Positions 20,565 through 39,880 of a stretch of DNA of 39,880 nt are shown here, piece after piece. Position 1 is the stretch's first letter. Every line of letters begins with the position of its first letter. Under the pieces are notes generated by a model that was not told the DNA's origin, did not search any database, and saw only the letters and a list, made by a program, of their open reading frames with translations. The stretch is taken from positions 1 through 39,880 of the forward strand of contig JAGWBV010000031.1 of assembly GCA_021295715.1 (NCBI GenBank), read 5' to 3'. The position numbers were made by a program, and so were the translations under genes. The DNA comes from Candidatus Poribacteria bacterium (GTDB taxonomy: Bacteria > Poribacteria > WGA-4E > WGA-3G).

Positions 20565-20669
20565 TCTTTAGAGTATCTAATTAATACTAAACTCTACCAT
20601 AAAAACAACCTGTCGAAAACATCCCCGAAATTGTGAAATTCACGCTTCAGTGAAAGGGAGACGGTGGAA

Positions 20670-23600
20670 ATGATGAAGCAAGCAGATAGAAGTAAGCCTT
20701 GGATTACCGGACACAAATGTCAACCGTTGTGCACTACTTCGATAGCATATGCCTCGTTGCTGCTGTCGTTCTTTATGATTGTCGGATGTGGACCCCTGAT
20801 AACCAGTGATCCGCAATCTGGTCTTCCTTATGATGGTTCCAAAACAGATGCGGTGTCTGCAAAGACATGGCCCGTGGAACGGACACTTGTCAGTAACGAG
20901 GTCAATTGCATCGCCACAGATGCAGACAATGTATGGATAGCGACAGCGCGCGGGGTTTCTCGCTGGGACCGTCAGCAGGATCAGTGGCGTCACTATACGA
21001 TGGAAGATGGGTTGTCGAACGATATGGTGAACGCTGTTGCTGTTGATGGGCAATGGGTCTGGTTCGCCACGGATGAAGGTGTAAGCCGCTACGATATGCA
21101 AACAAACACCTTTGCGACCTTCCGAACCATTGATGGTTTAGCGAGTGACCAAGTCTCCTCAATTGCGGTGGATGGGAACTACGTCTGGTTTGGAACATCC
21201 GAAGGGTTGAACCGTTACGACAAAACGATTGACAGTTGGGCGGTGCGTACCCGGAAAGACGGCTTAGTCAGCAAAGTAATTACAACAATCGCGGTCGAGC
21301 CAGAGTATGTCTGGGTCGGCACCGATAGAGAGATAAACCCGGATCCGCATGGATGGGACGAGGATCCGAGGTTCAGCAGAGGTGGCGTGAGTCGCTACCA
21401 TCGAGATACCGATTCTTGGAATAACTATACGAAGTCAGATGGCTTAATAGACAGCGAAATCGCTACGATCGCCGTGGACGATGACAGCGTTTGGTTTGGT
21501 ACCGAAGATGAGGGGGTCAGTCAGTACAACCAAATTGACCAGACATTCATCAAAACATATACGAAAACGGATCTGCTGAAAAGCAATATGATCACATCCA
21601 TTCGCGCAGATGGATTCCAAGTTTGGTTTGGGACTGCTAATGCGGGTGTCCATCGGTTCATTAAGCCCGTCAATACATGGGTGCATTACACTAAGGCAGA
21701 TGGACTTTCCAGTGATCATGTGAGTTGGATTACGACCCAAGGCAACGATGTTTGGTTTGGTAGCAAAGAAGATGGTGTGAGTCGATTTGATAAAGTGAGC
21801 GGTGAATGGACGATTTACAAGCAATCCGATTTCCTCGCCGATAACGATGTCCGTCATCTAACACGTGATCCTGACGGGAACATTTGGACGGCAACGGTTG
21901 CGGGAATTTCGATCTACTCTCCTCAAACGAACAGTTGGGAAATCATCTCCAGGAAAGATGGGCTGCCGACCCGCTACATCACGTCAATACTTATTAGCGA
22001 TCAGCAGTCAGCCGTCAGTAGTCAGCAAGAAAATTCTACTTCATCAGAAACCGATGGTTCTGGACAGTCGATGGCTTCCGATAGCGATTCTTCCGAAAGC
22101 CGAAAGCCAACAGACATTTGGATTGGGAGTGATCGAGGACTTGGTACACGAACGTATCTGGGCGGTGATTGGACATTTCATACCCCACAAAATAGCAATC
22201 GGCAGTCAGCCGTCAGCAGTCAGCAAGAACGTATGGGGGCATCAGAAACCTCTTCACCGAGAGCCGAGAGCCGAGAGCCGAGAGCCATTCCTGGCGAAGC
22301 TTTTGTAACGTCTGTTGATATGGATACTGCGTCACCGAACCACTACATCTGGCTCGGTACGAGTTCTGGTCCTGCGATGTATGATACGACTTCCCAAGAA
22401 TGGATGCAACTTGTCCTACCAGACCCACCTAAAAATCCGCTCATATCCTCCGTTCTTGCTCGTGATGAAAGGGTCTGGTTTGGTGGGGCAGAAGGTGTTT
22501 GGCAGTATTCAATCCCCGATAAGCAGATGCACCGTGTTGCCGATGGTCTTCCGAATCCATACGTTAATGCGCTGCTTTCCATAGGTGAAAATGAAGAACA
22601 AACGCTTTGGGCAGGGACGCGTCAAGGTCTGGCAAGATATGACGAGGCCCGTCAGCGTTGGGTCCCGCTGTCCTTTAATAACCAATTATCGTCGCCCAAT
22701 GTCACCGCACTCGCTTTTCGAGATGGTATTCTCTGGATCGGCACCCCTCAAGGGCTTGGAAGTTACACGATTGCTTCCAAATCATGGAATTCTCTCTCAA
22801 ATGTGCCATATAACATTCGCGACATCCTGTGTGAGGCAGATGGAACACTTTGGTTGGCGACAGATACGGGGCTCGTTGAATATGACTCACAAAGTGGGAG
22901 AGAGGTGCTACATCAATCCCGTCCGGTGCGGGAACCGTTCTTTGAAACAATGGTTTCAAATATAAAATTTGATGGGGATTACATCTGGTTCAATAGTTGG
23001 GGGGATTCGCCGAACGGTGCGCTTGTGCGGTTCCATCGCTCAACAGAAACGTGGCGGCGTTTCACGCGCTTAGATATTCTGCAGTCCACTCAGAAAAGGT
23101 CCATGACATTAATACGTTGGACCCATGTGGATACTGATGCTGTCTGGTTCACGACGGACTACGGTGTTCTCCGTTACGATAAAATGACGGATACGTGGCA
23201 GCATTTTACAACAGAGGATGGACTCTCTACAAACGATGTGAATAAAATTGCTGTGAGTGAGCAGAGTGTCTGGGTCATTCCGATGATAGGTTTGGAATTA
23301 AACCATTATAGTAAAGCGGCTGGGACATGGAAAGTGGTTGAAGAAGAAGATAACCGCGAGATCGAGCGTATAAAGGCACTTGGGGTTGATGGGCCGAATG
23401 TCTGGTTTGCATCTGGACGTGGCCTGACTCGTTACAATGAGATTACCCGTGAATGGAAGGATTTTGGTCCCAGAGATGGACTGGCAGGTAGAGGCGGGGA
23501 ATGGATTACTGTAGATGACGATTTCGTCTGGGTTGCGCGTTCGGAATGGGACAGAGGCAGCAACCGTCCATTATCACGATACGATAAAAAGACAAAAAAG

Positions 23601-25028
23601 TGGACGACGTTTTCAACGAATGACGTGCTGGCTGCAAGAACTATTAGGCGCATTATCGCAACAGAGAACGATGTTTGGATACTCTACAGACCGTGGGAAG
23701 ATGTAGGTGTTACCCGATATGACAGACGGAACAAGGAGTGGACCACAATCCGATCGGGACGCGGAACGCTCGAACTGGCCGCCGACGAGGATTATCTCTG
23801 GTTAGCCGCACCGAATAATGGGCTTCGACGATTTCATTTCGCCTCTGGCACCTGGGCAGCGTTTAGAGATATCAAAGGGCTGCTCCATAACCATGTGGGT
23901 GAGTATGGGCTCGCCGTTGATGAGGATTATGTATGGGTAGGAACCTTGCGAGGGCTTTCCCGTTATGATAAACGGAAGGAATCCTGGACCCCTTTGACAG
24001 CACTCCCAACCCTTGTTGGACGCACTATTCGGACAGTGGCTACAGATGAGCGTTTCGTCTGGGTCGGTACTGATAAAGGTATGTCCCGCTATGACAAGGC
24101 TTTAGGAACTTGGAAGAATTATCAGCAGGAGGGTGGCTCCGAAAATATAGAGACCCACGATGGTCATTGGCACGAGCATCGACGGAAAAAGAGAGACTGT
24201 CTCTCCGATGACGTTGTGAGTTCTATTGTGGTTGATGAGCAGTACGTCTGGGTCGGGACGCGGGATGGTGCGAACCGCTTTGATAAAATCGCACTGCGGT
24301 GGGATCAGTACAAAACTGAGCATGGGTTGCCTGCCAATAATGTGACTTCTGTCAGCAGCGATGGCGATAGTATCTGGGTTGGGACGAATTCAGGGATTGG
24401 GAAGTACCCCCGCACAGCGGATGACCTCAACGCATGGATTACCTATACATCGGGCACTGAAATTCAACCGTCTGCTGTGTCCAAAGAGTTTGCCGAATCG
24501 TTGGTTACGGATCAAATTTGGTGTATCACGGCGAGTAAGAAATACGTCTGGGTCGGGACACGCCGCGGGGTCAGCCAATACGACATCAGTCGGGATATCT
24601 GGAAGACGATTACAGTAGAAGATGGACTCGCCAGCGATGAAGTGAGTTGTATCGCTATTGATGGCGACAATGTTTGGTTTGGCAGTGACCGCGGTGTGAC
24701 GCTCTATAATGAAAAAACAGAAGTTTGGGCCGCCTATACGACGGAAGATGGACTCGCCAGCAACAAAGTTACCACTATCGGTATTGATGGCACAGAGCTA
24801 TGGATCGGCACATACAATGCCGGTGTTAGTCGGTTTGATCAGTTGACGAATACTTGGACGACTTACACGCGAGAGGACGGTTTGGCGCATAATGGTATTC
24901 TCTCGATGGCAGTGGATAGCCCCTATGTCTGGTTTGGTACCTATCGTGGGTTGAGTCGTTTCGATAAGCACACGGGCATCTGGACAACCTTCACAGAGTC
25001 GTATGGACCCGAGGATATTTTGAGATAA
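20670..25028 (+). CDS. Giant lipoprotein of two-component-regulator-type propeller repeats, no kinase domain
   Basis: 1452 residues from the ATG at 20670 (GGGAG nine bases upstream); an in-frame GTG at 20664 is closer to that site and less likely. The signal segment ASLLLSFFMIVGCG supplies a lipobox-like VGC. The body is more than two dozen Reg_prop blades of about 42 residues with pattern VWFGTxxGVSRYDKxTxxWxxYTxEDGLxSNxVxxIAVDG spread over each repeat. Such propellers normally form the sensor half of hybrid histidine kinases; here the protein ends after the last blade with no transmembrane helix, kinase or DNA-binding region, so it is likely a surface or periplasmic binding scaffold. Two Ser/Gln/Glu-rich segments (about residues 444-480 and 510-540) are encoded by dispersed repeats. 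The barrel gene follows, 101 bases away. Confidence 0.85.
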   Translation: MMKQADRSKPWITGHKCQPLCTTSIAYASLLLSFFMIVGCGPLITSDPQSGLPYDGSKTDAVSAKTWPVERTLVSNEVNCIATDADNVWIATARGVSRWDRQQDQWRHYTMEDGLSNDMVNAVAVDGQWVWFATDEGVSRYDMQTNTFATFRTIDGLASDQVSSIAVDGNYVWFGTSEGLNRYDKTIDSWAVRTRKDGLVSKVITTIAVEPEYVWVGTDREINPDPHGWDEDPRFSRGGVSRYHRDTDSWNNYTKSDGLIDSEIATIAVDDDSVWFGTEDEGVSQYNQIDQTFIKTYTKTDLLKSNMITSIRADGFQVWFGTANAGVHRFIKPVNTWVHYTKADGLSSDHVSWITTQGNDVWFGSKEDGVSRFDKVSGEWTIYKQSDFLADNDVRHLTRDPDGNIWTATVAGISIYSPQTNSWEIISRKDGLPTRYITSILISDQQSAVSSQQENSTSSETDGSGQSMASDSDSSESRKPTDIWIGSDRGLGTRTYLGGDWTFHTPQNSNRQSAVSSQQERMGASETSSPRAESREPRAIPGEAFVTSVDMDTASPNHYIWLGTSSGPAMYDTTSQEWMQLVLPDPPKNPLISSVLARDERVWFGGAEGVWQYSIPDKQMHRVADGLPNPYVNALLSIGENEEQTLWAGTRQGLARYDEARQRWVPLSFNNQLSSPNVTALAFRDGILWIGTPQGLGSYTIASKSWNSLSNVPYNIRDILCEADGTLWLATDTGLVEYDSQSGREVLHQSRPVREPFFETMVSNIKFDGDYIWFNSWGDSPNGALVRFHRSTETWRRFTRLDILQSTQKRSMTLIRWTHVDTDAVWFTTDYGVLRYDKMTDTWQHFTTEDGLSTNDVNKIAVSEQSVWVIPMIGLELNHYSKAAGTWKVVEEEDNREIERIKALGVDGPNVWFASGRGLTRYNEITREWKDFGPRDGLAGRGGEWITVDDDFVWVARSEWDRGSNRPLSRYDKKTKKWTTFSTNDVLAARTIRRIIATENDVWILYRPWEDVGVTRYDRRNKEWTTIRSGRGTLELAADEDYLWLAAPNNGLRRFHFASGTWAAFRDIKGLLHNHVGEYGLAVDEDYVWVGTLRGLSRYDKRKESWTPLTALPTLVGRTIRTVATDERFVWVGTDKGMSRYDKALGTWKNYQQEGGSENIETHDGHWHEHRRKKRDCLSDDVVSSIVVDEQYVWVGTRDGANRFDKIALRWDQYKTEHGLPANNVTSVSSDGDSIWVGTNSGIGKYPRTADDLNAWITYTSGTEIQPSAVSKEFAESLVTDQIWCITASKKYVWVGTRRGVSQYDISRDIWKTITVEDGLASDEVSCIAIDGDNVWFGSDRGVTLYNEKTEVWAAYTTEDGLASNKVTTIGIDGTELWIGTYNAGVSRFDQLTNTWTTYTREDGLAHNGILSMAVDSPYVWFGTYRGLSRFDKHTGIWTTFTESYGPEDILR
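22000..22108. repeat. Dispersed CAGTCAGC-type repeat inserted in frame in the propeller gene (copy 1)
   Basis: The left arm TCAGCAGTCAGCCGTCAGTA runs on to GTCAGC (22001-22026). The core has ACCGATGGTT, as in the intergenic copy at 2183, and the right arm CCGAAAGCCGAAAGCC is at 22093-22108. The frame stays open and encodes QQSAVSSQQE and then a Ser/Asp-rich stretch between two blades. Confidence 0.75.
22200..22286. repeat. Dispersed CAGTCAGC-type repeat inserted in frame in the propeller gene (copy 2)
   Basis: The left arm CAGTCAGCCGTCAGCAGTC begins at 22203. The right arm is four copies of CGAGAGC at 22257-22286. It encodes RQSAVSSQQE and then RAESREPRA. The 91-base gap to copy 1 holds ordinary propeller sequence, so these are two separate insertions or a duplication. 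Confidence 0.75.
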
Positions 25029-29309: not shown

Positions 29310-30257
29310 CTATAATTCTGTTTGAGCACGCAGGGCTTTCAACTCCATACGAAAAGTCTGCATATCGTTGACTCTCACGGCTCCAATAGCACTAATGACA
29401 CGGTCATAAGCGACTGCTCCAGCACCTCCAACAAACAAAGAAACATGCTCTTGGAGTCCGCGCCGAATTTTTGCCAATTCACTTGCTATATGCGGATCAT
29501 CTGTAGGATAAATGATACTCAATCCAACAGCCTTTGCGGCATTTTGTACGACACACCCCACAATTTCTTCCGCTGGCAGATTGGGTCCGAGGTAAGTGAC
29601 GTGCCATCCTTCTGAAGCCGCAGTTGTTCCCGCAATTAATGCCCCGATTTCGTGAAGCTGACCCCGAGGTGTCGCAATCACTAAGTTTGGCATTGGAGCA
29701 GATATATCAAACCCTTGGTGGATATTGCCTAACAGTGTCCGAACAACCGCCGAGACAAGATGTTCGTGTGCAATCCGCAGAGTTCCTTCTCTCCACTGTT
29801 CACCAATTTCCTGCATTAACGGTACAACCAACTTTTCGAGGAAAACAGGTTGGCTAAAAGCGACTGATGCAGCGAAAAGGGTCGACTCGAGTGTTCGCGC
29901 CTCAAACTGCTTAACCGCTGTGATGCACGAAGCGATGTAAAAACGAAGGGATGTTTCTTGCGAGACATCCTCTTTCGCTATTGCAGGGGACTGCACAACC
30001 ATTCCCTCCGTTCCAACGAGTTCCAGAAGTTTCTCAATCGGTAGGTTGGCTATGTGTCCAATGCTATGCCCTCCCTCAGTCGCCAGACGCAGCAACGTGA
30101 GTCGCGATATATCCGCATCGGAATAGAGACGACGATTCGTTTCGGTTCTCAGTGGTGTGACCACATCGTATCGCTTTTCCCATGCACGAATGGTAAATTG
30201 TGTTAACCCCGTCTGGATGGCAACGGTTTTGATACCATATTTGTGTTCATCCGTCAT
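29310..30257 (-). CDS. carH: MerR-family, B12-binding transcriptional regulator (CarH/LitR type)
   Basis: 315 residues from the ATG at 30257, chosen for AAGGGA upstream; an in-frame GTG lies at 30275. Residues 7-75 form a MerR winged helix (FTIRAWEKRYDVVTP, RRLYSDADISRL). About 105-185 form the helical B12-cap domain with the light-sensor signature W155-x9-E165-H166. About 190-310 form the cobalamin-binding Rossmann domain with H202 in RGQLHEIGAL as the expected lower ligand. CarH proteins bind adenosylcobalamin, form a dark tetramer that represses carotenoid genes, and fall apart in light. Two departures: Arg follows W155 where Thermus CarH has the His used in the light state, and Gln replaces the usual acidic residue two before H202. 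It is divergent from a carotenoid operon, its expected target. Confidence 0.85.
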   Translation of the reverse strand: MTDEHKYGIKTVAIQTGLTQFTIRAWEKRYDVVTPLRTETNRRLYSDADISRLTLLRLATEGGHSIGHIANLPIEKLLELVGTEGMVVQSPAIAKEDVSQETSLRFYIASCITAVKQFEARTLESTLFAASVAFSQPVFLEKLVVPLMQEIGEQWREGTLRIAHEHLVSAVVRTLLGNIHQGFDISAPMPNLVIATPRGQLHEIGALIAGTTAASEGWHVTYLGPNLPAEEIVGCVVQNAAKAVGLSIIYPTDDPHIASELAKIRRGLQEHVSLFVGGAGAVAYDRVISAIGAVRVNDMQTFRMELKALRAQTEL

Positions 30258-30280
30258 GAATCTTTCCCTTTTCACTCAAT

Positions 30281-30332
30281 AATTGTAAACTAAATCGTAA
30301 ATGCTCACGTTTTTACATCCAAACCTACAATT
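30281..30332. promoter_or_regulatory. Four-half-site palindromic operator candidate for the CarH-like regulator
   Basis: AATTGTA (30281-30287) pairs with TACAATT (30326-30332), and GTAAA (30297-30301) pairs with TTTAC (30312-30316). Both pairs share the same dyad axis between 30306 and 30307. The GTA cores are 12 bases apart within each arm. The region begins at the predicted transcription start of the regulator gene, which would suit autorepression. Confidence 0.55.
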
Positions 30333-30333
30333 T

Positions 30334-30362
30334 AATATAACATTCTGTATATTATTTGTCAA
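30334..30362 (-). promoter_or_regulatory. Promoter of the CarH-like regulator gene
   Basis: On the - strand, TTGACA (30362-30357), a 17-base spacer and TATATT (30339-30334, five of six) are present. The start point would fall near 30327, inside the palindrome at 30281-30332. Confidence 0.75.
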
Positions 30363-30533
30363 GAATTTCATCAAAAAATTATATCTGTCAGAATATCAGA
30401 ATTAAACACTGGAAACCTCGAATTCCTTATGAATCCTCTATTATTATCGAATACTAATTGGGCAATTCTGACGCTACCGAACGACATATTTCTATACAAA
30501 ATATAGTCACAGGAAAATTGTATAAATTATTTA

Positions 30534-30574
30534 TTGACAAAATATAGACAATATGTAATAATACTGTATATAGT
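30534..30574 (+). promoter_or_regulatory. Promoter of the carotenoid operon with an overlapping palindrome
   Basis: TTGACA (30534-30539), a 17-base spacer and AATAAT (30557-30562, five of six) are present. The near-perfect palindrome ACTGTATATAGT (30563-30574) touches the -10. CTATACAAAATATAG (30492-30506) is a second palindrome upstream. The predicted leader to the idi start is about 100 bases. Confidence 0.7.
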
Positions 30575-30671
30575 GATTCATGCTCCAATTTAATCTGGAA
30601 AATCATACCAATCGCGATTAGAGAACAGATTGGTTTATGAAGCACAACCGATGAAAGGAAACAAGACATAA

Positions 30672-31211
30672 ATGATGCAAGAACATGTAACACTCGTCGA
30701 CCCGATGGGAAGAGAAATCGGCACTCAGGAAAAAATACAAGCACATCGTGATGGTAAATTACACAGTGCTTTTTCGGTTTTTGTCTTTAACGCCGTAGGC
30801 GAATTGCTGCTTCAGAGACGCGCACATACAAAGTATCACTCCGGTGGATTGTGGACGAACACCTGCTGTAGTCACCCACGCCCAGGTGAAAATCATCAGC
30901 ACGCGGCGCGGCGTCGACTCCATGAGGAAATGGGTTTCGATTGTGAACTCAAGGAGATTTTCAGCTTTATTTACCACATCCAACTCGACAATAGCTTGTT
31001 TGAGCACGAACTTGACCGTGTCTTTGTTGGGCATTATAGCGGTCAACCGATTCCGAATCCGGACGAAGTTGATGATTGGAAGTGGATGAAAATCAGCGCG
31101 TTGAAGCAGGATGTTCGGGAGAACCCCAAAAATTACACATACTGGTTCAAACTGGCGTTAGATCGCGTTGTTGAACACTCCCAAAAAATCAGTTATTGCG
31201 ATGAAACTTAG
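30672..31211 (+). CDS. idi: Isopentenyl-diphosphate delta-isomerase, type I
   Basis: 179 residues. It interconverts IPP and DMAPP, feeding isoprenoid synthesis in the cytoplasm. Type I signatures are present: TNTCCSHPRPGE (62-73), which carries the active-site Cys and metal-binding His, the Nudix-like segment ARRRLHEEMGF, and a later FEHELDRVFVGHY with the active-site Glu. Length matches the family. AAAGGA lies upstream at a long spacing; the ATG pair at 30672/30675 is preceded by AT-rich sequence. It is the first gene of the carotenoid operon, after a consensus promoter. Its last four codons overlap the start of the next gene. Confidence 0.93.
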   Translation: MMQEHVTLVDPMGREIGTQEKIQAHRDGKLHSAFSVFVFNAVGELLLQRRAHTKYHSGGLWTNTCCSHPRPGENHQHAARRRLHEEMGFDCELKEIFSFIYHIQLDNSLFEHELDRVFVGHYSGQPIPNPDEVDDWKWMKISALKQDVRENPKNYTYWFKLALDRVVEHSQKISYCDET

Positions 31212-31788
31212 CCACTGTGTTCATATAGGTTTGATATTAGCATTGATTTTCTCGTTGCGAATTGACGGTGCTCCGTCCAAGAAACCGGTAGACGAAATGC
31301 TGGAAGTCGCACGAAAGCAATTCTATGCCGCAATTGAAGACGAGAAACGGATTGAACCGACGATTGCATTGTTTAAACAAATTGGACAAGCAGAATCGAA
31401 TTACACTGGGCGCACAGAGGTCTATATTGGTTCGCTTATTGCGCTCAGAGGGAAACATGCGTTTCTTCCCCACGCCAAGCTTAAGTGGGCGCGGCGCGGT
31501 TTAGCAATCATGGATAAAGGCTTGCAGAAAAGCCCAAACGATATTGAAGCATTGTTCATTCATGGGACAACCTGTTACTATCTTCCATTCTTTTTCAGAC
31601 GCGGTGATGACGCTCAGCGAGATTTCAAGGTAATCATCAAATTGATGCCACAGCAGATGGATACCTATGACCCAGAGTTAATCGCAAATGTCGTTGCGTT
31701 CCTACTTGAACGTGCGAAACTGACGAATGATGAGAAAACATACCTCCAAGATATTGGTCGTCAGTTATCGGTCATCGGTTATCAGTAA
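31201..31788 (+). CDS. Exported TPR-like protein of unknown function in the carotenoid operon
   Basis: 195 residues from the ATG at 31201, which overlaps the end of idi and begins a good signal peptide (MKLSHCVHIGLILALIFSLR). The frame also extends upstream to 31168 inside idi. The mature part is helical and TPR-like: ALFKQIGQAESNYTGRTEVY, then KWARRGLAIMDKGLQKSPND, then a repeat-like RGDDAQRDFKVIIKLMP. TPR proteins usually mediate protein contacts; I do not recognise the specific family. The last ten residues (GRQLSVIGYQ) and the stop codon come from one arm of the dispersed CAGTCAGC-type repeat, so the natural C-terminus may have been altered. Its place between idi and the cyclase suggests a link to pigment export or membrane organisation, which is only inference. 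Confidence 0.75.
   Translation: MKLSHCVHIGLILALIFSLRIDGAPSKKPVDEMLEVARKQFYAAIEDEKRIEPTIALFKQIGQAESNYTGRTEVYIGSLIALRGKHAFLPHAKLKWARRGLAIMDKGLQKSPNDIEALFIHGTTCYYLPFFFRRGDDAQRDFKVIIKLMPQQMDTYDPELIANVVAFLLERAKLTNDEKTYLQDIGRQLSVIGYQ
31759..31788. repeat. Single arm of the dispersed repeat ending the TPR-like gene
   Basis: CGTCAGTTATCGGTCATCGG and TTATCAGTAA form one arm of the element described at 2183. It supplies the terminal residues and the stop of the TPR-like gene. Confidence 0.65.
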
Positions 31789-31821
31789 GAGGGAGTGTCG
31801 ATTATCGATGATGTGACTTGG

Positions 31822-31877
31822 TTGGAAAGATGGAAGGGAGGAAGAATCGAAGGATAGATGTCCCCTAATCTTCCAAC
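31822..31877. repeat. Small inverted repeat before the lycopene cyclase gene
   Basis: GTTGGAAAGAT (31822-31832) and ATCTTCCAAC (31868-31877) are inverted copies with one extra A, flanking a purine-rich core. It ends 16 bases before the cyclase start, and no clear ribosome-binding site follows. Confidence 0.6.
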
Positions 31878-31893
31878 TTTTAACTCTTAAAAA

Positions 31894-32586
31894 ATGAAAT
31901 TCGAGTATCTTCTGTTTAATCTCATTGTCGCTGTTGGACCAGTAGTATCGCAATTCAATCGCCAGATTAAGCATTTATCACAGTGGCGACTGAAATTGAT
32001 CACAAATGGAATCGTCATGATTCCATATATCGTATGGGATGTGCTGGTCACAGGATCGCATTGGCATTTCAATAAAGCGTATACGCTTGACTTCCGGTTG
32101 TTAGGGCTGCCGATTGGAGAGTGGCTCTTTTTCATTACAGTTCCGTTTGGATGCTTGTTAGTATGGGAAACATTGTCGGATGCAAAACTATCAACGCCAT
32201 TGAGATCCCTTCGGTATATCAGAACAGTTTTATACGCTGCCCTACCGATCGGCGTATGGGCTTTCAGCACAGGCAAGCAATACACTGGACTGGTGCTGTG
32301 CTGTTTTGGAATCGTTGGAGTAGTGGATACATGGTTAGGAACTGGCGTGCTACTGCAATCGAAAACCTATATCTACTTAGCAATTGTTTCAGTTTTGATT
32401 TTGATATTCAACAGTTATCTCACAGCGCGACCTGTGGTTTTATATGGTGAGGCGTATCAGATGGGTTACCGAATTTTGACGATTCCCGTTGAAGATTTCG
32501 GATATGGATTCACGTTGATGCTTTTTAACGCGATGCTCTACGAAAAAATTTTTAATTTTACCTTGCGGAGAAACAACGGGCGTTAG
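31894..32586 (+). CDS. crtYcd: Fused two-domain lycopene cyclase (CrtYc-CrtYd type)
   Basis: 230 residues, mostly hydrophobic, with about seven membrane segments, matching the fused form of the heterodimeric lycopene cyclase found in archaea, Bacteroidetes-like and other bacteria. The first domain ends with LPIGEWLFFITVPFGCLLVW (72-91). The second ends with the canonical TIPVEDFGYGF (196-206) followed by LMLFNAMLYE. The enzyme closes psi ends of lycopene into beta rings in the membrane. The first motif has PIGE where PIEE is usual, so one acidic residue is lost in the N-terminal half. Given the cruF-type gene downstream, a monocyclic product (gamma-carotene) is expected. The ribosome-binding site is weak. 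Confidence 0.88.
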   Translation: MKFEYLLFNLIVAVGPVVSQFNRQIKHLSQWRLKLITNGIVMIPYIVWDVLVTGSHWHFNKAYTLDFRLLGLPIGEWLFFITVPFGCLLVWETLSDAKLSTPLRSLRYIRTVLYAALPIGVWAFSTGKQYTGLVLCCFGIVGVVDTWLGTGVLLQSKTYIYLAIVSVLILIFNSYLTARPVVLYGEAYQMGYRILTIPVEDFGYGFTLMLFNAMLYEKIFNFTLRRNNGR

Positions 32587-32634
32587 GACTGTTGCGTGCG
32601 TTTCTCAAATCTGAAGAAACACCCCAGCAAAAAC

Positions 32635-32766
32635 CCTGCGCCGATGTTGCAGGCTGCTATCTTGGGTAAATTAAAGCGCGTAGCCCGTAATGTAACGGAG
32701 GACGGTTTTACGTCGAGGCGCGTTATTTACTTAACCGCCCTGAACGAACCGATAGGAATAATTAAA
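32635..32766 (-). repeat. Dispersed CCTGC-palindrome element, copy A (inverted)
   Basis: CCTGCGCCGATGTTGCAGGC (32635-32654) is the reverse complement, with one mismatch, of the core in copies B and C. Also, AACGAACCGATAGGAATAAT plus TAAAA (32743-32766) matches the end of copy B. The stretch lies between the cyclase and crtD-like genes. Confidence 0.6.
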
Positions 32767-32769
32767 AAT

Positions 32770-34263
32770 ATGGAAAATAAAACAGTAGCAGTCATTGGAG
32801 GCGGGCTTGGTGCACTCAGCGGTGCGATCCGCCTCGCACGACTCGGATTCTCCGTCCAGTTATTCGAGAAGAACCTGAAGCTCGGTGGTAAGGTCAACGA
32901 AGTGGTTTTGGGTGACTATCGATTCGACACGGGTGCCTCACTGTTGACAATGCCATCGGTCATTGACGAACTCTTCGATTTCGCTGGATTCAATAGGTCA
33001 AATTATCTCAACTTCGTGCCCATTGACCCAATATGCCGATACTTCTTCCCAGACGGTTCAGTGATGGATGCGAGTGCGGATGAGACGAAAATGAAAACCG
33101 CCATCGCGCAGTTATCACCAAGAGATGTGAAGGCATACGAACGTTTTTTGAAATACGCAGAACGTATTCACGACCTAACAGCCGAAATTTTCATGTTTAC
33201 TCCGATCCATGAATTTGGGAAACTCATGCGTCATCGTCATTTTCGGACACTGTTCAGGCTTCATCAAATTGATCCATTTCGGACAGTTCACCAGAGCGTA
33301 TCCCGTTTTTTCTCTGATCCGCGCCTCGTCCAACTTTTCGACCGTTATGCGACCTACAACGGCTCAGACCCGTTCCAAGCGCCCGCGACCCTTAACATAA
33401 TTCCGTACATTGAATACGGATTGGGTGGGTATTACATCAAAGGCGGCATATACCGCTTAGTTGACACATTGAAGACGGTAGCGTGTGAATTAGGTGTTCA
33501 GATTCATACATCAGCGAAAGTCGAGACAATCTGCCACGATGGTAAACGAGTGAGTGGAGTGCAAGTTAAGGGTGAGAGAATTAACGCCGATTATGTGTTA
33601 TGCGGCGCGGACGCTGTTGTTGCATACCACGAATTGATTGATGGACTTCAGCATCAGCGCGAAAAACTGAACCAGTTGGAGCCATCATTGTCTGGAATGG
33701 TATTCTTGTGGGGTGTTAGAGGAAAGTATCCAGAGTTAGCACATCACAACATTATCTTTTCCAGCGACTATAGCATCGAGTTCAAACAGATTTTCAGAGA
33801 TCGGCAAGTCCCAGATGAACCGACGATTTACATTGCGATAACCAGCAAATCGGATGCGGCACATGCACCAGCAGATGGCGAAAATTGGTTTGTGTTGCTG
33901 AACATGCCGTATTTGGTCCCTGGACAGATGTGGGAGAAGGAAAAAATGCGGATGCGGAAGGTTGTTCTGGATAGATTAAAGCAACTCGGTTTCGACATCA
34001 AAGATCAGATTGAGGTGGAACAGATTTACACCCCAGAGGATTTCTCTCAGCTTTACGCCAGCAACCAAGGAAGTATCTACGGTGTATCCTCAAATAGCAA
34101 AACCACTGCGTTCAGACGTCTACCGAATCGAAGCCGTCTTCTTGATGGACTTTACTTCGCAGGCGGTTCAGTGCATCCGGGGGGCGGAATTCCGTTGGTA
34201 ATATCGTCTGGAAAAATGGCGGCGACGTTAATGGCTGAAGATCATGCATCGAAGGACTTTTAA
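32770..34263 (+). CDS. crtD: CrtI/CrtD-family carotenoid desaturase, CrtD-like
   Basis: 497 residues from the ATG at 32770, where the FAD-binding N-terminus starts (VAVIGGGLGALSGAIRLARL). The longer frame to 32596 is only repeat-derived sequence. The FAD fold GGGLGA is at 10-15 with the ribose-binding Glu in LFEKN. The C-terminal FAD segment GLYFAGGSVHPGGGIPLVIS is the form typical of carotenoid 3,4-desaturases (CrtD); the CrtI form is seen in the next gene. Expected reaction: 3,4-desaturation of a 1-hydroxylated psi end, working with the CruF-like hydratase. Oxygenase relatives such as CrtP share the fold and cannot be fully excluded. Confidence 0.8.
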   Translation: MENKTVAVIGGGLGALSGAIRLARLGFSVQLFEKNLKLGGKVNEVVLGDYRFDTGASLLTMPSVIDELFDFAGFNRSNYLNFVPIDPICRYFFPDGSVMDASADETKMKTAIAQLSPRDVKAYERFLKYAERIHDLTAEIFMFTPIHEFGKLMRHRHFRTLFRLHQIDPFRTVHQSVSRFFSDPRLVQLFDRYATYNGSDPFQAPATLNIIPYIEYGLGGYYIKGGIYRLVDTLKTVACELGVQIHTSAKVETICHDGKRVSGVQVKGERINADYVLCGADAVVAYHELIDGLQHQREKLNQLEPSLSGMVFLWGVRGKYPELAHHNIIFSSDYSIEFKQIFRDRQVPDEPTIYIAITSKSDAAHAPADGENWFVLLNMPYLVPGQMWEKEKMRMRKVVLDRLKQLGFDIKDQIEVEQIYTPEDFSQLYASNQGSIYGVSSNSKTTAFRRLPNRSRLLDGLYFAGGSVHPGGGIPLVISSGKMAATLMAEDHASKDF

Positions 34264-34458
34264 TTATGGACTCCTGGGCTGCGCTCCGCTACGCTTACGT
34301 GCAGGTTTCTGGGAAAGAATAAAATGTCTTGTAGCATAAACTTTCATTTTGTGTGAGGTTAGCGAAGCCGTAGCCTGCAACAACGGCGCAGGCGGATCTA
34401 CGGAAATGAACGTTATTGATCCAACCTACCTCAACGAACCGCAAGGTATAATTAAAAT
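34264..34458. repeat. Dispersed CCTGC-palindrome element, copy B
   Basis: The interval between the two desaturase genes has no coding frame. It contains a nested palindrome: CCGTAG (34368-34373) with CTACGG (34398-34403), and inside it CCTGC (34374-34378) with GCAGG (34388-34392). AACGAACCGCAAGGTATAAT plus TAAAA (34433-34456) repeats the sequence found just before the crtD-like start. Its AAGG is the nearest ribosome-binding candidate for crtI. Confidence 0.7.
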
Positions 34459-35952
34459 ATGAAGCGCAAAATTGTCATCATCGGCTCAGGATTCGGAGGT
34501 CTCGCAGCAGCAATTCGGCTGCAAGCCAAAGGCATGCGAGTCACACTTCTGGAAAAGAATGCGAAAGTTGGGGGTCATGCTTATCAATTGGTTAAGGAAG
34601 GCTACACCTTCGACATGGGACCCTCTATTATCACCGCGCCTGACTTGATTCAACGTGTATTTGCGTGTAGTGGCACACGGATGGAAGATTACCTTGATTT
34701 GGTGAAACTTGACCCATTTTACCGTATCTATTTCCATGACGGTACATCTCTCGATTACACAGATGACAGCGAACAGATGAAACGGCAGATGGCACAGTTC
34801 AGCACAATGGATGCTGATAACTACGACCGTTTCATGGCGCATACCCGTCAACTTTACGATGCTGTGATTACAGATGGGTTAGGCGCGACCGCATTTGATT
34901 TGCCGACGATGCTCAATTTTCTGCCACGCGCTTTACGGCTTCGGGCACTGATGCCTGCCTACGACTTTGTTAAGAGGTATTTTGAAGATTCGCGTCACCG
35001 TTTTATCTTCTCGTTCCATCCGTTGTTCATCGGCGGTAATCCGTTCCGGGCACCTGCCGTTTACTTGATGATCCCGTACCTTGAAAAGACTGGAGGTGTC
35101 TGGTTCTGCGGGGGCGGTATGTATAGTCTGATTCGTGCCTTAGAAGATGTGTTCAAACAACTCGGTGGTATCGTCGAAACCGATGCAGAGGTTGAACAGA
35201 TCGTTGTTGAAAATCGGTGCGCAAAGGGAGTTATTGCCAACGAACATTTTTACGAAGCAGATGGTGTTATTTCAAATGCCGATCTGGTACATACCTACGG
35301 AAAACTCATTAAGTCCAAACAACGTAGGAAATGGTCCGACAAGAAACTCAGAAAGACCCAATACTCAATGAGTGCCTTCCTGCTCTATCTCGGTGTCCGT
35401 AAAAAATATCCACAACTGAAGCACCATACACTCATTCTGTCCGAAAGATACAAAGGATTGGTAACCGACATTTTTGACAATAAGATTCTTCCGAACGATT
35501 TTTCAATGTATCTCCATATCCCGTCGCAAACCGATCCATCAATGGCACCGGAAGGCTGTGAGAGCATGTACGTCCTGATTCCTGTGCCGAATTTGGAGAG
35601 CGGTGTCAACTGGGAGAAGGCGAAGGCGGCATATACGGACAAAGTGCTGACGTTCTTGGAAAATGACTTTGGACTGACAGACCTAAAGCGTTCCATTGAA
35701 GTGCTTGAAACGTTTACGCCTTCAGATTTCAGACGGGAACGGAACAACCATCTCGGCAGCGCGTGGGGTGTTGAACCAAAGCTGACACAGACAGCATATT
35801 TTCGACCGCATAACCGAAGTGAAGATATACAAAAACTCTACTTTGTCGGTGCGAGTACGCATCCCGGAGCAGGTGTCCCGGGTGTCCTGCTGACAGCAGA
35901 AACGACGGTAAAACTTGTCGTCAAGGATTTGATTGAGGAGGATTCATCATGA
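34459..35952 (+). CDS. crtI: Phytoene desaturase
   Basis: 497 residues. FAD-binding GSGFGGLAAAIRL (9-21) with Glu32 in LLEKN, the FDMGPSIITAPDL segment and a C-terminal LYFVGASTHPGAGVPGVLL identify bacterial CrtI, which converts phytoene to lycopene in four desaturation steps at the membrane. Length is the family norm. The ATG follows a repeat element whose AAGG sits 12 bases upstream, a loose spacing. The last four bases overlap the crtB start (ATGA), which makes translational coupling likely. The two CrtI-family genes are the same length but clearly different in sequence, so they are diverged paralogues with separate steps. Confidence 0.92.
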   Translation: MKRKIVIIGSGFGGLAAAIRLQAKGMRVTLLEKNAKVGGHAYQLVKEGYTFDMGPSIITAPDLIQRVFACSGTRMEDYLDLVKLDPFYRIYFHDGTSLDYTDDSEQMKRQMAQFSTMDADNYDRFMAHTRQLYDAVITDGLGATAFDLPTMLNFLPRALRLRALMPAYDFVKRYFEDSRHRFIFSFHPLFIGGNPFRAPAVYLMIPYLEKTGGVWFCGGGMYSLIRALEDVFKQLGGIVETDAEVEQIVVENRCAKGVIANEHFYEADGVISNADLVHTYGKLIKSKQRRKWSDKKLRKTQYSMSAFLLYLGVRKKYPQLKHHTLILSERYKGLVTDIFDNKILPNDFSMYLHIPSQTDPSMAPEGCESMYVLIPVPNLESGVNWEKAKAAYTDKVLTFLENDFGLTDLKRSIEVLETFTPSDFRRERNNHLGSAWGVEPKLTQTAYFRPHNRSEDIQKLYFVGASTHPGAGVPGVLLTAETTVKLVVKDLIEEDSS

Positions 35953-36878
35953 AGAAATTGTGGAAAGCAGAAGAGAATCGGGTTGCCTTTGCGTATGCTC
36001 GCAGCATAACCGCCTACTATTCAAAGAGTTTTTACTTCTCAGCAAAGATGCTGCCGAAAGAACAACGTTGGGCGACTTACGCACTCTACGGTTTCTGTCG
36101 ACACTGCGACAATCTGATTGATACGCCGCGTCAACGGACTGAAACAGAAATCGTTAGAGAGATACAACTCTTGACAGAAGAATTACAGGTTGCTTACAAT
36201 ACAGGTGAGTCTCAACATCCAATTATTCGTGCCTTCATTCTTGTTGCCAAGGCGTATAGTATCCCTATTGAATATCCACTCGATTTGCTTAAAGGGGTTG
36301 CCATGGATATCCAGAAGACGCGGTATAAAACATTCGATGAACTCTCTCTTTTCTGTTATCGGGTCGCGGCTGTCGTTGGACTGATGATGACCTATGTCCT
36401 CGGCTATAAGGACGAACGTGCCTTTGGTTATGCCAAGCAACTCGGCATTGCCATGCAACTCACCAATATTCTGCGGGACATCAAGGAAGATAAGGACATG
36501 GGACGCATCTATCTACCACAGAAGGATTTGGTGAGATTCGGCGTATCGAAGCAAGACATCTTAGAAGAAAAAATGACACCTCAATTGAAAGAACTGATGA
36601 AATTTCAAATTGAACGCGCAGATCGCTATTACACTGAAGCTATGCCCGGTATCTCTTTACTCGAAACGGAATCACAGTATGCGATCTATTCGGCTGCTAA
36701 AATTTACCGCGGGATCTTAAGAAAGATTGAAGATCATAACTACGACCCATTCTTAAGTCGAGTCTTTGTGCCGTCGAGCCAGAAAATCGGGATTCTGTTA
36801 CACGAGGGGCTGCGAGGGAAATTTCTATCGGCACAGGAGAAGTTATTTCCAGCCCATTCAGGAATAATCAACAAATGA
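35949..36878 (+). CDS. crtB: Phytoene synthase
   Basis: 309 residues. AGGAGG lies seven bases before the ATG, the strongest site in the operon. The enzyme condenses two geranylgeranyl diphosphates to phytoene. Both Asp-rich magnesium-binding motifs of squalene/phytoene synthases are present: D54-NLI-D58 in RHCDNLIDTP, and D177-IKE-D181 in TNILRDIKEDKDMGRIYLP. The helical body and length are normal. It overlaps crtI by four bases and the acyltransferase by four bases, so the three are tightly coupled. No GGPP synthase is in the window, so that precursor enzyme must be encoded elsewhere. Confidence 0.93.
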   Translation: MKKLWKAEENRVAFAYARSITAYYSKSFYFSAKMLPKEQRWATYALYGFCRHCDNLIDTPRQRTETEIVREIQLLTEELQVAYNTGESQHPIIRAFILVAKAYSIPIEYPLDLLKGVAMDIQKTRYKTFDELSLFCYRVAAVVGLMMTYVLGYKDERAFGYAKQLGIAMQLTNILRDIKEDKDMGRIYLPQKDLVRFGVSKQDILEEKMTPQLKELMKFQIERADRYYTEAMPGISLLETESQYAIYSAAKIYRGILRKIEDHNYDPFLSRVFVPSSQKIGILLHEGLRGKFLSAQEKLFPAHSGIINK

Positions 36879-37534
36879 TTCGGGCACAGCACCGTCTTTG
36901 GGCGGACATCATCTTTCAACCATATCTGACGTGGTTGTTAAATCGGAACTTCCACGAGATTCAGGTGTTAGGGACAACACCGAAAATACCTGACGATTTA
37001 CCAGTGCTGCTCCTACCAAACCACAGCACATGGTGGGACGGGTTCTTCGTTTATCTGCTCAACAAAAAGATCTTTCGTCGGACTACCTATCTGATGATGT
37101 TAGAAAAGCAGCTATCGAAATACAAATTCTTCGCGAAAATAGGTGCATATTCAATTGAACCTGAGAATCGACATAATATTATTAAATCCCTTGAATACAC
37201 CGTGGAATTACTGGATCGAGAGATGCCGCTCGTTTCCATTTTTCCGCAAGGGCAACTCGTCCCATGGCATACGCGACCTCTTGGATACAAACGCGGTGTT
37301 GAATGGATTTTACGGAAATACGGAAAACCTATCGCTGTGCTTCCGTTGGCAATTCGCACAGAGTTTCTCGGAGAAAAGCGTCCAAGTGTATTCTTCCTGT
37401 TCGGTGCTGTCAATTTATTTGATGCAGGGACATTTCAAGGGATGGATTGGCTCGAACAGACTGAAACCGAACTATTAGATGATCTCGCTTTCCGGATTCT
37501 TCATGAAGAAAAGGGACAAAATCTGCTGGATTGA
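36875..37534 (+). CDS. PlsC-type acyltransferase, probable carotenoid glycoside acyltransferase
   Basis: 219 residues, starting within the crtB stop (ATGA overlap). The HX4D catalytic motif is H50-STWW-D55 in LLPNHSTWWDGFF, and the glycerol-phosphate-binding-type motif is IFPQGQLVP (123-131), with Gln where PlsC has Glu (FPEG). These are the two main blocks of lysophospholipid acyltransferases. Its place next to a glycosyltransferase in a carotenoid operon matches acyltransferases, such as CruD-type enzymes, that esterify the sugar of a carotenoid glycoside. The acceptor assignment is inference from context. The altered FPEG Glu fits a substrate other than lysophosphatidate. Confidence 0.8.
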   Translation: MIRAQHRLWADIIFQPYLTWLLNRNFHEIQVLGTTPKIPDDLPVLLLPNHSTWWDGFFVYLLNKKIFRRTTYLMMLEKQLSKYKFFAKIGAYSIEPENRHNIIKSLEYTVELLDREMPLVSIFPQGQLVPWHTRPLGYKRGVEWILRKYGKPIAVLPLAIRTEFLGEKRPSVFFLFGAVNLFDAGTFQGMDWLEQTETELLDDLAFRILHEEKGQNLLD

Positions 37535-37549
37535 AAGGTTGGTATTGCT

Positions 37550-38719
37550 TTGTTTATCCTGATGCTTATTTCGATGGTTCTATTGACAGTTATTCTAACA
37601 GTCACACTGTTTAATGCTGCGACTGCACCGATGCTGAAAAAAACGTTGGGTCTCCAGAGCTATCCACGCGTTTCAGTGTTGATCCCGGCGCGCAATGAAG
37701 AAGTCAACATCGGTGATTGTATTGAAGGATTCCTGTCTCAAAACTATGGTAACTTGGGGGTTTACGTTCTTAATGACCAATCGACGGATCGCACAGGCGC
37801 GATTATTGAAAAATTTGGTGAACAGTATCCTGAAATTCAGACGATTCACGGTAAACCGTTGCCAGCAGGATGGAATGGAAAAAACTGGGCATGTCATCAA
37901 TTGAGTCAACATGCGGATGGAGAGATACTCATTTTCACCGATGCGGATAACCGTCCGGCACCAAACGCGATTGCGAATACTGTTGCCTACATGCAGAAGT
38001 TGGAGCTTGGATTCTTCTCGGCGTTTCCAGAAAAAGTAACAGGGACCTTAGCAGAAAAACTCGTCGTGCCAGTGGTAGACATGTTCGTTTACGCCGGGCT
38101 TCCGTTATGGCTTACCTACTATAGTCGTTTTCCGTCGCTCGCCGCTGCGAGCGGTCTCTGGATCGCATTCACCCGAGAGGCGTATCAACAGGTTGGTGGG
38201 CATCAAGCGGTATCAAATCAGATTGTTGAAGATGTCGAACTCAGCCGATTAGCGAAAAAAAGAGGAGTCAAAATCCTGACATCGGCGGGAACGCGCGTTG
38301 TCTCTTGCAGGATGTATCATTCGTTCAAGGAGGTCTGGGACGGATTTTCCAAAAACCTTTTTGGACTGGTCGGCTACAAAATGATACCGTTTTTTATTCT
38401 AATTCTCGGTCTGTTTACAATGTGTGTGCTACCCTACATCGCTGTCTGGTTTGCACCACTTAGAGGACTGGCAATCGTTGCTATCACTATGAATGTCGTT
38501 ATGCGGATGGTGCTGTCACTCAAATACAGACATCCGTTCCTCACAAGCATAATTTTACATCCGTTTGGGATTCTATTAACCCTGTTGATTGGTATCAATT
38601 CATTCTGTCAAGTTAGAAGCGGTCGTCTGCAGTGGAAGGGACGACAAATTGACTTGAGAATCGCGGTCAGCAGTCAGCAATCGGCGGATGTGAAAAAATT
38701 AAACAGGAAACTCAGTTAG
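37550..38719 (+). CDS. Membrane family-2 glycosyltransferase, probable carotenoid glucosyltransferase
   Basis: 389 residues from a TTG at 37550 with AAAGG upstream; an ATG at 37562 is the alternative. One N-terminal transmembrane helix (2-25) is followed by a GT-A catalytic domain: VSVLIPARNEEVNI (41-54), VYVLNDQSTDRT (71-82), the DxD metal site D131-A-D133 in LIFTDADNRPAP, and a VEDVELSRLAKKRG acceptor-side motif. Three or four C-terminal helices follow (about 270-355). This is the layout of CruC/CruG/CrtQ-type carotenoid glycosyltransferases, which add a sugar to the hydroxyl of the psi end. The last 20 residues begin with AVSSQQSAD, derived from the dispersed repeat. The sugar donor is unknown. 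Confidence 0.82.
   Translation: MFILMLISMVLLTVILTVTLFNAATAPMLKKTLGLQSYPRVSVLIPARNEEVNIGDCIEGFLSQNYGNLGVYVLNDQSTDRTGAIIEKFGEQYPEIQTIHGKPLPAGWNGKNWACHQLSQHADGEILIFTDADNRPAPNAIANTVAYMQKLELGFFSAFPEKVTGTLAEKLVVPVVDMFVYAGLPLWLTYYSRFPSLAAASGLWIAFTREAYQQVGGHQAVSNQIVEDVELSRLAKKRGVKILTSAGTRVVSCRMYHSFKEVWDGFSKNLFGLVGYKMIPFFILILGLFTMCVLPYIAVWFAPLRGLAIVAITMNVVMRMVLSLKYRHPFLTSIILHPFGILLTLLIGINSFCQVRSGRLQWKGRQIDLRIAVSSQQSADVKKLNRKLS
38664..38690. repeat. Single arm of the dispersed repeat in the glycosyltransferase C-terminus
   Basis: GCGGTCAGCAGTCAGCAATC and GGCGGAT encode AVSSQQSAD, the same peptide phase as the two copies in the giant propeller (QSAVSSQQE). Confidence 0.7.
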
Positions 38720-39472
38720 ATGACGAAAACGAAGCCTGCAACAACGGCGCAGGCGACTCTTGAGAAAAGAACTTCAAATAAGAAGCTCACTGGACGACTC
38801 CGCAAGGTAAAATTAAAATATAAAATAGGGGCACTTTATCTACTGTTAGGCGCAGGTGGATTGTGGCATGTGCTCGGTGTATTCCAAGGAGTCATGCGCG
38901 TCCTCGCTTCACCCATCATGTTCGGTTTAGGCGTATGGCTGTTTTGGGAATGCTGGGGGGTATACCCACGGAATGAACGACCAAAATTTGCCATCGTCAG
39001 TATAGGCATCGTTGTTGTGAGTTTTGGGATTGAATGGCTTGGTGTTCGGACGGGACAGATTTTCGGTTCATACCTGTATGGAGAAACCTTACAGCCATCG
39101 ATTGGTGGTGTCCCCATCAGCATTGGATCTGCGTGGTTTGTGATGCTCGTTGCTTCGACCGCTGTTGCTCAGAAAATTGTCCCGAAATCCTTAGCAGAAG
39201 GGTTCCATTTCAAAGTAGCGTTTCTGGTGGCTTTGCTAATGGTCTGCTTCGATCTACTTATGGAACCGGCGGCAGTGAAATTGGATTATTGGAGATGGTT
39301 GAACGACCATATCCCCTTACGGAACTATCTGATGTGGTTTGGATTAAGTTTCATTTTCGCGATAATCGGTTTTCAAGTTGGTGTGCTTCGTCAACAATTG
39401 CCTCGAATCGCTTTTCACTGCTATTTTGCGCAACTCCTATATTTTGGATTGGTTAATCTAAGTGGCTTATGA
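38720..39472 (+). CDS. cruF: CruF-type carotenoid 1,2-hydratase (DUF422 family)
   Basis: 250 residues, with the ATG directly after the TAG of the glycosyltransferase gene. About seven membrane segments are present. Family blocks are EWLGVRTGQIFGSYLYG and IGGVPISIGSAWFVM in the middle, and DLLMEPAAVKLDYWRW and IPLRNYLMWFGLS after them; the conserved acidic residues lie in membrane-facing motifs. CruF hydrates the psi end of gamma-carotene or lycopene to a tertiary alcohol, preparing it for desaturation and glycosylation. The first ~33 residues (KPATTAQATLEKRTSNKK and on) are encoded by the CCTGC-palindrome repeat, so the ancestral start may have been later, near KYKIGALYLL. It overlaps the crtW start by four bases. 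Confidence 0.82.
   Translation: MTKTKPATTAQATLEKRTSNKKLTGRLRKVKLKYKIGALYLLLGAGGLWHVLGVFQGVMRVLASPIMFGLGVWLFWECWGVYPRNERPKFAIVSIGIVVVSFGIEWLGVRTGQIFGSYLYGETLQPSIGGVPISIGSAWFVMLVASTAVAQKIVPKSLAEGFHFKVAFLVALLMVCFDLLMEPAAVKLDYWRWLNDHIPLRNYLMWFGLSFIFAIIGFQVGVLRQQLPRIAFHCYFAQLLYFGLVNLSGL
38735..38822. repeat. Dispersed CCTGC-palindrome element, copy C, inside the cruF-like reading frame
   Basis: CCTGCAACAACGGCGCAGGC (38735-38754) is identical to the core of copy B at 34374-34393. CGCAAGGTAAAATTAAAATA (38802-38821) matches copy B's end with one change. The copy is read through as the N-terminus of the hydratase. Confidence 0.75.
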
Positions 39473-39880
39473 AATCGACAAATAAGGGCTTATTCATTGC
39501 GTTAGGAATTATTGGTTTATGGGGATTGAGCCTCTCAATTCTCCTTACACTTGATGTTCGTCGCGCTCACCTTGTGGTGCTGCCTTTGGGCATGCTTTGT
39601 CAGACATTTCTGTACACGGGTCTGTTCATCACATCGCACGACGCGATGCACGGTTCAATTTGTCCTACGCACCCGCGTATCAACAATGTAATGGGAGCAC
39701 TCGCTGTCAGGCTATATGCCTTGTTTTCATATCGTAAATTACAGAAGAAACACTGGGAGCATCACCGAACACCCGCCAGCGATAAGGATCCAGATTTTCA
39801 CGATGGACACCATACCAGCTTCTTGGCGTGGTATTTCCATTTCATGAAAGAATATCTCAGTTGGTGGCAGATTGTTGGTA
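39469..39880 (+). CDS. crtW: Carotenoid 4-ketolase, CrtW type (3' truncated by the window)
   Basis: The ATG overlaps the hydratase stop (ATGA), and the frame is open to the right edge, giving 137 residues. Membrane diiron His boxes are visible: HDAMH in LFITSHDAMHGSICPTHPRI, and HWEHH in KKHWEHHRTPASDKDPDFHDG. TGLFITxHDAMHG and DPDFHDG are the signature stretches of beta-carotene ketolases of the CrtW family, which add a keto group at C4 of a beta ring using O2. The C-terminal HxxHH box is outside the window. As the ninth gene of the operon it would oxidise the ring made by the fused cyclase. Confidence 0.88.
   Translation, partial: MKSTNKGLFIALGIIGLWGLSLSILLTLDVRRAHLVVLPLGMLCQTFLYTGLFITSHDAMHGSICPTHPRINNVMGALAVRLYALFSYRKLQKKHWEHHRTPASDKDPDFHDGHHTSFLAWYFHFMKEYLSWWQIVG

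Follow-up and report, generated by a model that had tools for sequence, protein, structure and literature searches.

The stretch of DNA analyzed here (the window) comprises bases 1-39880 of a 41,878-base contig from a Candidatus Poribacteria genome of 5.14 Mb and 175 contigs, a metagenome-assembled genome (MAG) that is 96% complete and 3.5% contaminated. It carries a gene for a CarH-type B12-binding regulator, carH, on the minus strand, divergent from a carotenoid gene set in the order idi, TPR-like (tetratricopeptide repeat-like), crtYcd, crtD, crtI, crtB, PlsC-type acyltransferase, GT2, cruF and crtW. Pfam and NCBIfam searches bore out the gene identities, order and strands given in a preliminary description of this DNA. 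The features are as follows.

29310..30257 (-): carH, regulator with a MerR helix-turn-helix (HTH) and a B12-binding part (four-helix, Rossmann); Pfam MerR_1, B12-binding_2 and B12-binding
30334..30366 (-): carH promoter with two 11-bp TnnACA repeats, TTGACA 30362-30357 (-35) and TATACA 30351-30346; -10 TATATT
30490..30524 (no strand): conserved inverted repeat TATACAAAAT...AATTGTATA, upstream of the idi -35
30530..30562 (+): idi/crt promoter with tandem 11-bp TnnACA repeats, TTGACA 30534-30539 (-35) and TAGACA 30545-30550; -10 AATAAT
30672..31211 (+): idi, isopentenyl-diphosphate delta-isomerase (type 1); PRK03759 173.5 bits (cut-off 127), TIGR02150 123.3 bits (cut-off 105.8)
31201..31788 (+): TPR-like helical protein with an N-terminal signal-like helix
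31894..32586 (+): crtYcd, fused CarR-type lycopene cyclase; two Pfam Lycopene_cyc stretches, TIGR03462 93.6 bits (cut-off 39.4)
32770..34263 (+): crtD-type 3,4-desaturase; best match NCBIfam CrtD, 389.6 bits (cut-off 500)
34459..35952 (+): crtI, phytoene desaturase; TIGR02734 566 bits (cut-off 238)
35949..36878 (+): crtB-type phytoene synthase; Pfam SQS_PSY 1.4e-76, HpnD and CrtB models all under cut-off
36875..37534 (+): PlsC-type acyltransferase, putatively CruD-like; Pfam Acyltransferase 9.9e-10
37550..38719 (+): GT2 glycosyltransferase, putatively CruC/CruG-like; Pfam Glycos_transf_2
38720..39472 (+): cruF-type 1',2'-hydratase; Pfam Caroten_synth 9.5e-27, CruF models 76.5, 59.3 and 41.4 bits, under cut-offs
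39469..39880 (+): crtW, ketolase, running beyond the window end

The curated NCBIfam cut-offs were exceeded by idi, crtI and crtYcd, while CrtD, CrtB, CruF, GT2 and CarH matched named families yet stayed under the NCBIfam equivalog cut-offs. Judged from frames and alignments, the probable starts are ATG 30257 for carH, with GTG 30275 as the other possible start, ATG 31201 for the TPR-like gene, and ATG 32770 for crtD rather than GTG 32596, where its open reading frame (ORF) opens. Only the 137 N-terminal residues of CrtW lie in the window; on the contig, crtW is interrupted by an N run (L001:10881-10965), after which its 3' half resumes in another frame, and the full-length CrtW of a relative (L047) scored 365.9 bits against the NCBIfam cut-off of 350.

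Two divergent sigma-70-like promoters were found in the carH-idi gap, where the number of promoter-like matches (4) was not above the shuffled mean of 3.5. At both promoters, the -35 TTGACA is followed by TAnACA exactly 11 bp on (30534-30550 on the idi side and 30362-30346 on the carH side). The binding sites of characterized CarH proteins are 11-bp repeats in tandem (nnnnTnnACAn) overlapping promoter elements (PMC9304148), and two perfect repeats of this form lie over each of the two promoters as putative operators. T. thermophilus pTT27 has the same motif: TGTACA, TTGACA and TATACA follow each other at 11-bp steps in the region separating carH from a divergently oriented phytoene/squalene synthase gene. 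The strict pattern TTGACA-N5-TAnACA occurred twice in the window, both times in the carH-idi gap, against a post hoc expectation of 0.01, and eight times in the whole 5.14 Mb genome, against two for the reversed pattern.

The conservation of the locus was then evaluated by a CruF search of 97 genomes including the source genome, 31 of which gave matches at E ≤ 0.001, the one in G010 being short and repeat-derived. The complete idi-to-crtW order was retained in 22 of the 30 mapped loci, counting L035, whose idi match is shortened, and L050, whose crtW lies 1.4 kb further on; the remaining ones were L057 without idi, five loci ended by contig ends, and two other-class loci (L058 and L059) with looser sets. 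A divergent carH was present on the same stretch in 17 of the 30. When CarH presence was called at E ≤ 1e-20 in 38 same-genus genomes, CarH and a strong CruF match co-occurred in 22, with CruF only in 2, CarH only in 1 and neither in 13 (Fisher p 2.5e-7, relatedness being ignored); the two CruF-only genomes, G015 and G023, are 78% and 84% complete, respectively, and their operon contigs end before the expected carH place. Of 19 informative same-genus loci, 18 had the idi-side repeat (L035 being the exception, and L044, with 70 bases visible, left out), while it was found in none of three other poribacterial loci, namely L046 from a genome without a CarH match, L056 with 215 bases visible and L057 without idi, and in none of seven non-poribacterial loci. 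In a ranking of 379 noncoding 17-base windows over 16 sequences (L035 left out), eight exceeded the idi repeat in conservation; seven of these overlap the same block, and the eighth, beginning at 30486, is the upstream inverted repeat, in which TATACAAAAT and AATTGTATA may possibly be further CarH half-sites. The carH-side repeat was less conserved, with 65 windows ranking above it. If this were a bare promoter, there would be no reason to expect the spacer repeat to be retained.

The carH product matched the structure of T. thermophilus CarH (TtCarH, 5c8d) at E 3.2e-23 with about 28% identity, and scored 103.6 bits against the cut-off of 400 of the NCBIfam equivalog CarH (NF052513). Its domains, a MerR HTH and two B12-binding subdomains, are those of the CarH/LitR group, which has been named class I LitR (PMC9758184). 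The CarH proteins of T. thermophilus and M. xanthus and LitR of B. megaterium share this MerR, four-helix and Rossmann B12 architecture along with Wx9EH and the cobalt-ligand His, and the window carH is like the known ones in being divergent from carotenoid genes and in having tandem 11-bp TnnACA repeats over the -35. All 17 operon-linked CarH proteins keep Wx9EH and the lower-ligand (cobalt) His, aligned to TtCarH W131, E141, H142 and H177, and all 17 keep GxxW, EH, GxxH and GxxxP, which are given as the light-response signature in PMC11796333. A Cob_adeno_trans (PF01923) gene, for adenosylcobalamin (AdoCbl) synthesis, is also present.

As for the product, the roles of these gene families are lycopene formation, one beta ring (CrtYcd), the 1'-hydroxyl (CruF), 3',4'-desaturation (CrtD), the 4-ketone (CrtW), and addition of a hexose (GT2) and an acyl group (PlsC-type). 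The gene types of a salinixanthin-type set, that is, phytoene synthase, desaturase, cyclase, ketolase, glycosyltransferase and acyltransferase, are all present, with substrate specificities assigned by inference. The expected pigment is a monocyclic 4-keto, 2'-deoxysalinixanthin-like glycoside ester, equal to salinixanthin minus the 2'-hydroxyl; the 2'-deoxy form is expected because no further oxygenase was found among the operon genes, the rest of the genome not having been searched for one. Of the salinixanthin-like pigment proposed in the preliminary description, the acyl-glycosyl-keto gene set held, and the expected product was modified to this 2'-deoxy form. The geranylgeranyl diphosphate (GGPP) synthase gene, for which a search had been suggested there, is absent from the operon, and two polyprenyl synthases were found elsewhere in the genome.

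The locus is likely to be a photoinducible operon whose product, a monocyclic 4-keto carotenoid carrying a sugar and an acyl group, would have a photoprotective function; an AdoCbl-loaded CarH-type protein would repress the operon in the dark. Gene set, order, conservation, operator-like repeats and signature residues were taken from the sequence, and DNA binding, light response, product structure and role were inferred. For this repression, the protein would sit on the 11-bp tandem repeats that cover the -35 element of each divergent promoter; light would break the Co-C bond and take CarH off the DNA, and this release would allow transcription of the idi-to-crtW operon and of carH itself. The pigment would most likely serve photoprotection, and not as a rhodopsin antenna. 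The earlier pairing of a photoregulator with the carotenoid operon was strengthened by the conserved CarH-type repeats and signature residues, but the antenna role attached to it was not supported.

A 2026 day-night metatranscriptome of the sponge Aplysina aerophoba showed daylight peaks of Poribacteriota lycopene cyclase and idi, and phytoene desaturase of bin44 (Poribacteriota) was also raised in daylight (PMC12879404). These three daylight-raised gene types are types found in the poribacterial operon. The main text of that paper names no sensor and contains none of the terms CarH, MerR, photoreceptor and operon, and no report on a Poribacteriota CarH was found in the open-licence PMC literature; B12 import in Poribacteria has been proposed in PMC5087111, in which the word carotenoid does not occur. 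The pathway with a B12 photoreceptor had been put forward as undescribed in this lineage. No report of that pairing was found in the same open-licence literature, but the daylight rise of idi, cyclase and desaturase in Poribacteriota is already published, with no regulator (PMC12879404). The parts are of known kinds; as far as this literature shows, novelty lies in how they are wired, in the lineage and in the residue pattern of CarH. Poribacteria are common uncultured sponge symbionts, and the locus offers a concrete mechanism and a predicted operator for the published daylight pattern, which could explain day-night carotenoid-gene expression and makes direct light sensing inside the sponge testable in vitro.

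Several observations weigh against the light-regulated operon. The position of TtCarH His132 is R, K or Q in all 17 operon-linked CarH proteins, and D/ExHxxG reads QxHxxG in all 17, with His and Gly kept and the acid replaced, so light release must take another route, be weaker, or could fail. On the DNA side, the strict repeat pattern was framed after both sites had been seen, and the general TnnACA pair is not rare in the window (4 vs. 1.72 expected, with 4 reached in 9 of 100 shuffles). Each promoter has two perfect repeats plus imperfect ones, compared with three in Thermus and four in B. megaterium, and L035 has carH and the operon yet no idi repeat, its idi match being the shortened one. 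On the carH side, the loose repeat pair is exact in 6 of 17 loci, and two distant CarH-bearing loci (L173 and L174) have no repeat pair at carH. The substrates of CrtD, GT2 and the acyltransferase are predicted from family assignment. Moreover, in PMC12879404, the overall profiles of Poribacteriota MAGs did not cluster by light and most sponge microbes were concluded not to be directly tied to light, and bin44 was not shown to carry the poribacterial operon-linked CarH. The residue changes bear on a rival explanation, in which AdoCbl or the redox state, and not light, is the signal for the MerR-B12 protein, or the protein is a repressor that does not respond to light, occupying the same operators and, without His132, staying on them under illumination. 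According to PMC10442372, which also cites an earlier contrary report, the light state of TtCarH has His132 as its upper ligand; this residue is tied to the light-driven tetramer dissociation, and the H132A variant remained mostly tetrameric after light. The 132 position is K, Q, S, R and R in five further CarH orthologues, which share the Q, and three of the five miss one signature element, reading QH (G058), AxxH (G063) and HxxH (a Melioribacteraceae protein). However, CtMerR, with an Arg at this position, still sheds the adenosyl group on illumination (PMC11796333), all four signature elements are kept in the 17 operon-linked proteins, and the Poribacteriota idi/crt transcripts are higher in daylight. 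His132, present in many but not all CarH proteins, has been reported as variable (PMC9304148 and PMC11796333), so it was not treated as defining for CarH membership. The light-insensitive or AdoCbl/redox-sensing alternative is regarded as improbable.

Two further rivals concern the pigment. It might be another decorated carotenoid, either un-acylated or un-glycosylated, if the acyltransferase acted on phospholipids and GT2 on hopanoids, or bicyclic. In support of this, the best-scoring model for GT2 is HpnB (165 bits vs. 113 bits for CruG, both under cut-off), and the acyltransferase matches general PlsC-like models only. In contrast, both genes lie between crtB and cruF in 22 of 22 complete operons and likewise in L078, L080, L082 and L083; the acyltransferase has 28-34% matches in six of six Chlorobiales-type genomes searched, and GT2 has 37-40% relatives in Chlorobiales-type loci. 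Chlorobiales-type genomes are known for chlorobactene glycoside esters, and these GT2 and acyltransferase relatives are putatively CruC and CruD, respectively. A different decoration is unlikely. The other rival is that the pigment is a rhodopsin light antenna, like salinixanthin in Salinibacter, which its predicted 4-keto ring and glycoside ester resemble on family grounds. Bac_rhodopsin was over cut-off in none of the 97 genomes, 83 of them of the same phylum, and hence not in the source genome either, itself a 96% complete MAG; sub-threshold partial matches occurred in three genomes of one other genus. The 14 control genomes gave no rhodopsin, while the same search picked up a rhodopsin (7e-49) in one of the 20 genomes from which related loci came, and so is able to detect one. 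Heliorhodopsin was found in none of 40 genomes, in a search without a responding positive control, hence its absence is not established. A retinal rhodopsin in the same genome, as in a xanthorhodopsin antenna, was thus not detected. Furthermore, salinixanthin is produced by R. marinus although no rhodopsin gene was detectable there (PMC5822342). The antenna role suggested in the preliminary description is without support, and this rival is considered very improbable. The rhodopsin gene that was detected (L152:1423-2256) belongs to a Bacteroidetes MAG whose locus L132 holds relatives of cruF, the acyltransferase and GT2, and it is closest to PDB 8jh0, titled xanthorhodopsin, followed by sodium-pump entries.

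Apart from the light-regulated poribacterial operon itself, the distant CarH relatives allow a wider reading. TnnACA pairs or triples were found beside carH in three of five more distant CarH loci (L171 of Caldithrix, L172 of Melioribacteraceae and L175 of G039). We tentatively propose, at somewhat less than even probability, that a CarH subfamily found in MAGs of Poribacteria, Caldithrix and Melioribacteraceae, with Q175 and R/K/Q/S132, switches in light without a bis-His step. This subfamily would sense daylight directly and so set the day-night expression of pigment genes in uncultured sponge symbionts, independently of cyanobacterial or host cues. Confidence in this reading was slightly reduced because three of the five distant orthologues miss a signature element and two of the five CarH loci have no repeat pair, while that in the light-regulated operon was kept, as it concerns the operon-linked CarH group. 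A CarH group without the TtCarH light-state His is a natural test of B12 photoreceptors working without that His. In L171:6410-8870 and L172:968-3298, carH is divergent from DUF4397 genes, in L172 also from fasciclin, with operator-like repeats; no match to the crt proteins of the operon was found in the stretch examined, which suggests a non-pigment CarH regulon. The best-ranked CarH relative, on a Gemmatirosa plasmid (38.5%), was rejected as a functional analogue, since the Trp, the EH glutamate and the His that ligates cobalt are all missing, and its surroundings contain no operon-protein match (E ≤ 1e-5) within 8 kb. As for a wider CarH regulon in the source genome, the six further TTGACA-N5-TAnACA sites lie within or before other reading frames; judged by eye, none of these frames is light- or pigment-like, and chance may explain most of the sites.

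Related operons were sought by a GT2-alignment profile scan of genome contigs, and the following refers to the best 80 of 545 confirmed places. The order from the TPR-like gene to cruF was kept in L078, L080 and L083 (KSB1), L082 (labeled bacterium) and L081 (Caldithrix); crtB went undetected in L081, as did crtW in L078 and L082, and L080 ends at a contig end. These KSB1/Caldithrix-type operons have the same genes and order as the poribacterial one, but neither an idi match nor a linked CarH; no strong linked CarH was found outside Poribacteria among these places. The gene sets of L079, L084 and L085 are rearranged or partial, those of Ignavibacteria and Melioribacter are more distant, and in L096 and L100 a CarH-like match of 24-27% lies beside crtI. 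Regulators with HTH_17 and B12-binding domains are divergent from the operon in Caldithrix (L081:3941-4807, minus strand) and in a 'Deltaproteobacteria' locus (L079:3950-4840, minus strand); both keep the W, EH and ligand His, and the former shares 22% identity with the window CarH across 173 aligned columns. B12-type regulators may therefore have been placed at this operon more than once. In L082, a photolyase gene lies just upstream of the operon.

Compared with known systems, the window CarH differs from TtCarH in having no His132 and Q for D/E in ExHxxG at its 28% identity, and, unlike characterized CarH proteins, it is predicted to control a whole acyl-glycosyl-keto operon starting with idi. 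CtMerR (PDB 8JBS) and the photocobilins are similar in their B12 light-signature elements and a non-His at the 132 position (PMC11796333), but belong to other protein lineages. The salinixanthin cluster of R. marinus is alike in CrtB, CrtI, cyclase, ketolase, and CruC- and CruD-type functions, but CrtY and CrtO were assigned there, neither CruF nor CrtD was found and CruC is unlinked; CarH is not mentioned in the part of the article available, and the salinixanthin occurs in hydroxylated and non-hydroxylated forms (PMC5822342).

The TPR-like protein had no Pfam or NCBIfam match. Its predicted fold is all-helical, with a predicted local distance difference test (pLDDT) score of 89. Although none of its PDB matches reached E ≤ 0.001, most of them are TPR or designed helical-repeat proteins, so that the label remains acceptable. 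The gene lies 5' of crtYcd wherever both were found (Poribacteria, KSB1 and Caldithrix MAGs), and an alignment of 25 sequences has 14 invariant columns.

In the flanks, crtW is directly 5' of a NodB-type polysaccharide deacetylase gene (L001:11158-11886), and a deacetylase is near the operon in 18 of the 30 mapped loci. The intergenic gaps in the operon differ between relatives; the crtD-crtI gap (34264-34458) contains an interspersed repeat of about 90 bases, for which the genome has 47 or more matches, this copy counted. The coding ends at 38690-38830 look repeat-derived: the N-terminal ~36 residues of CruF match sites dispersed over several same-genus genomes, and the GT2 tail AVSSQQSA appears again within a 1454-aa ORF (20664-25028).

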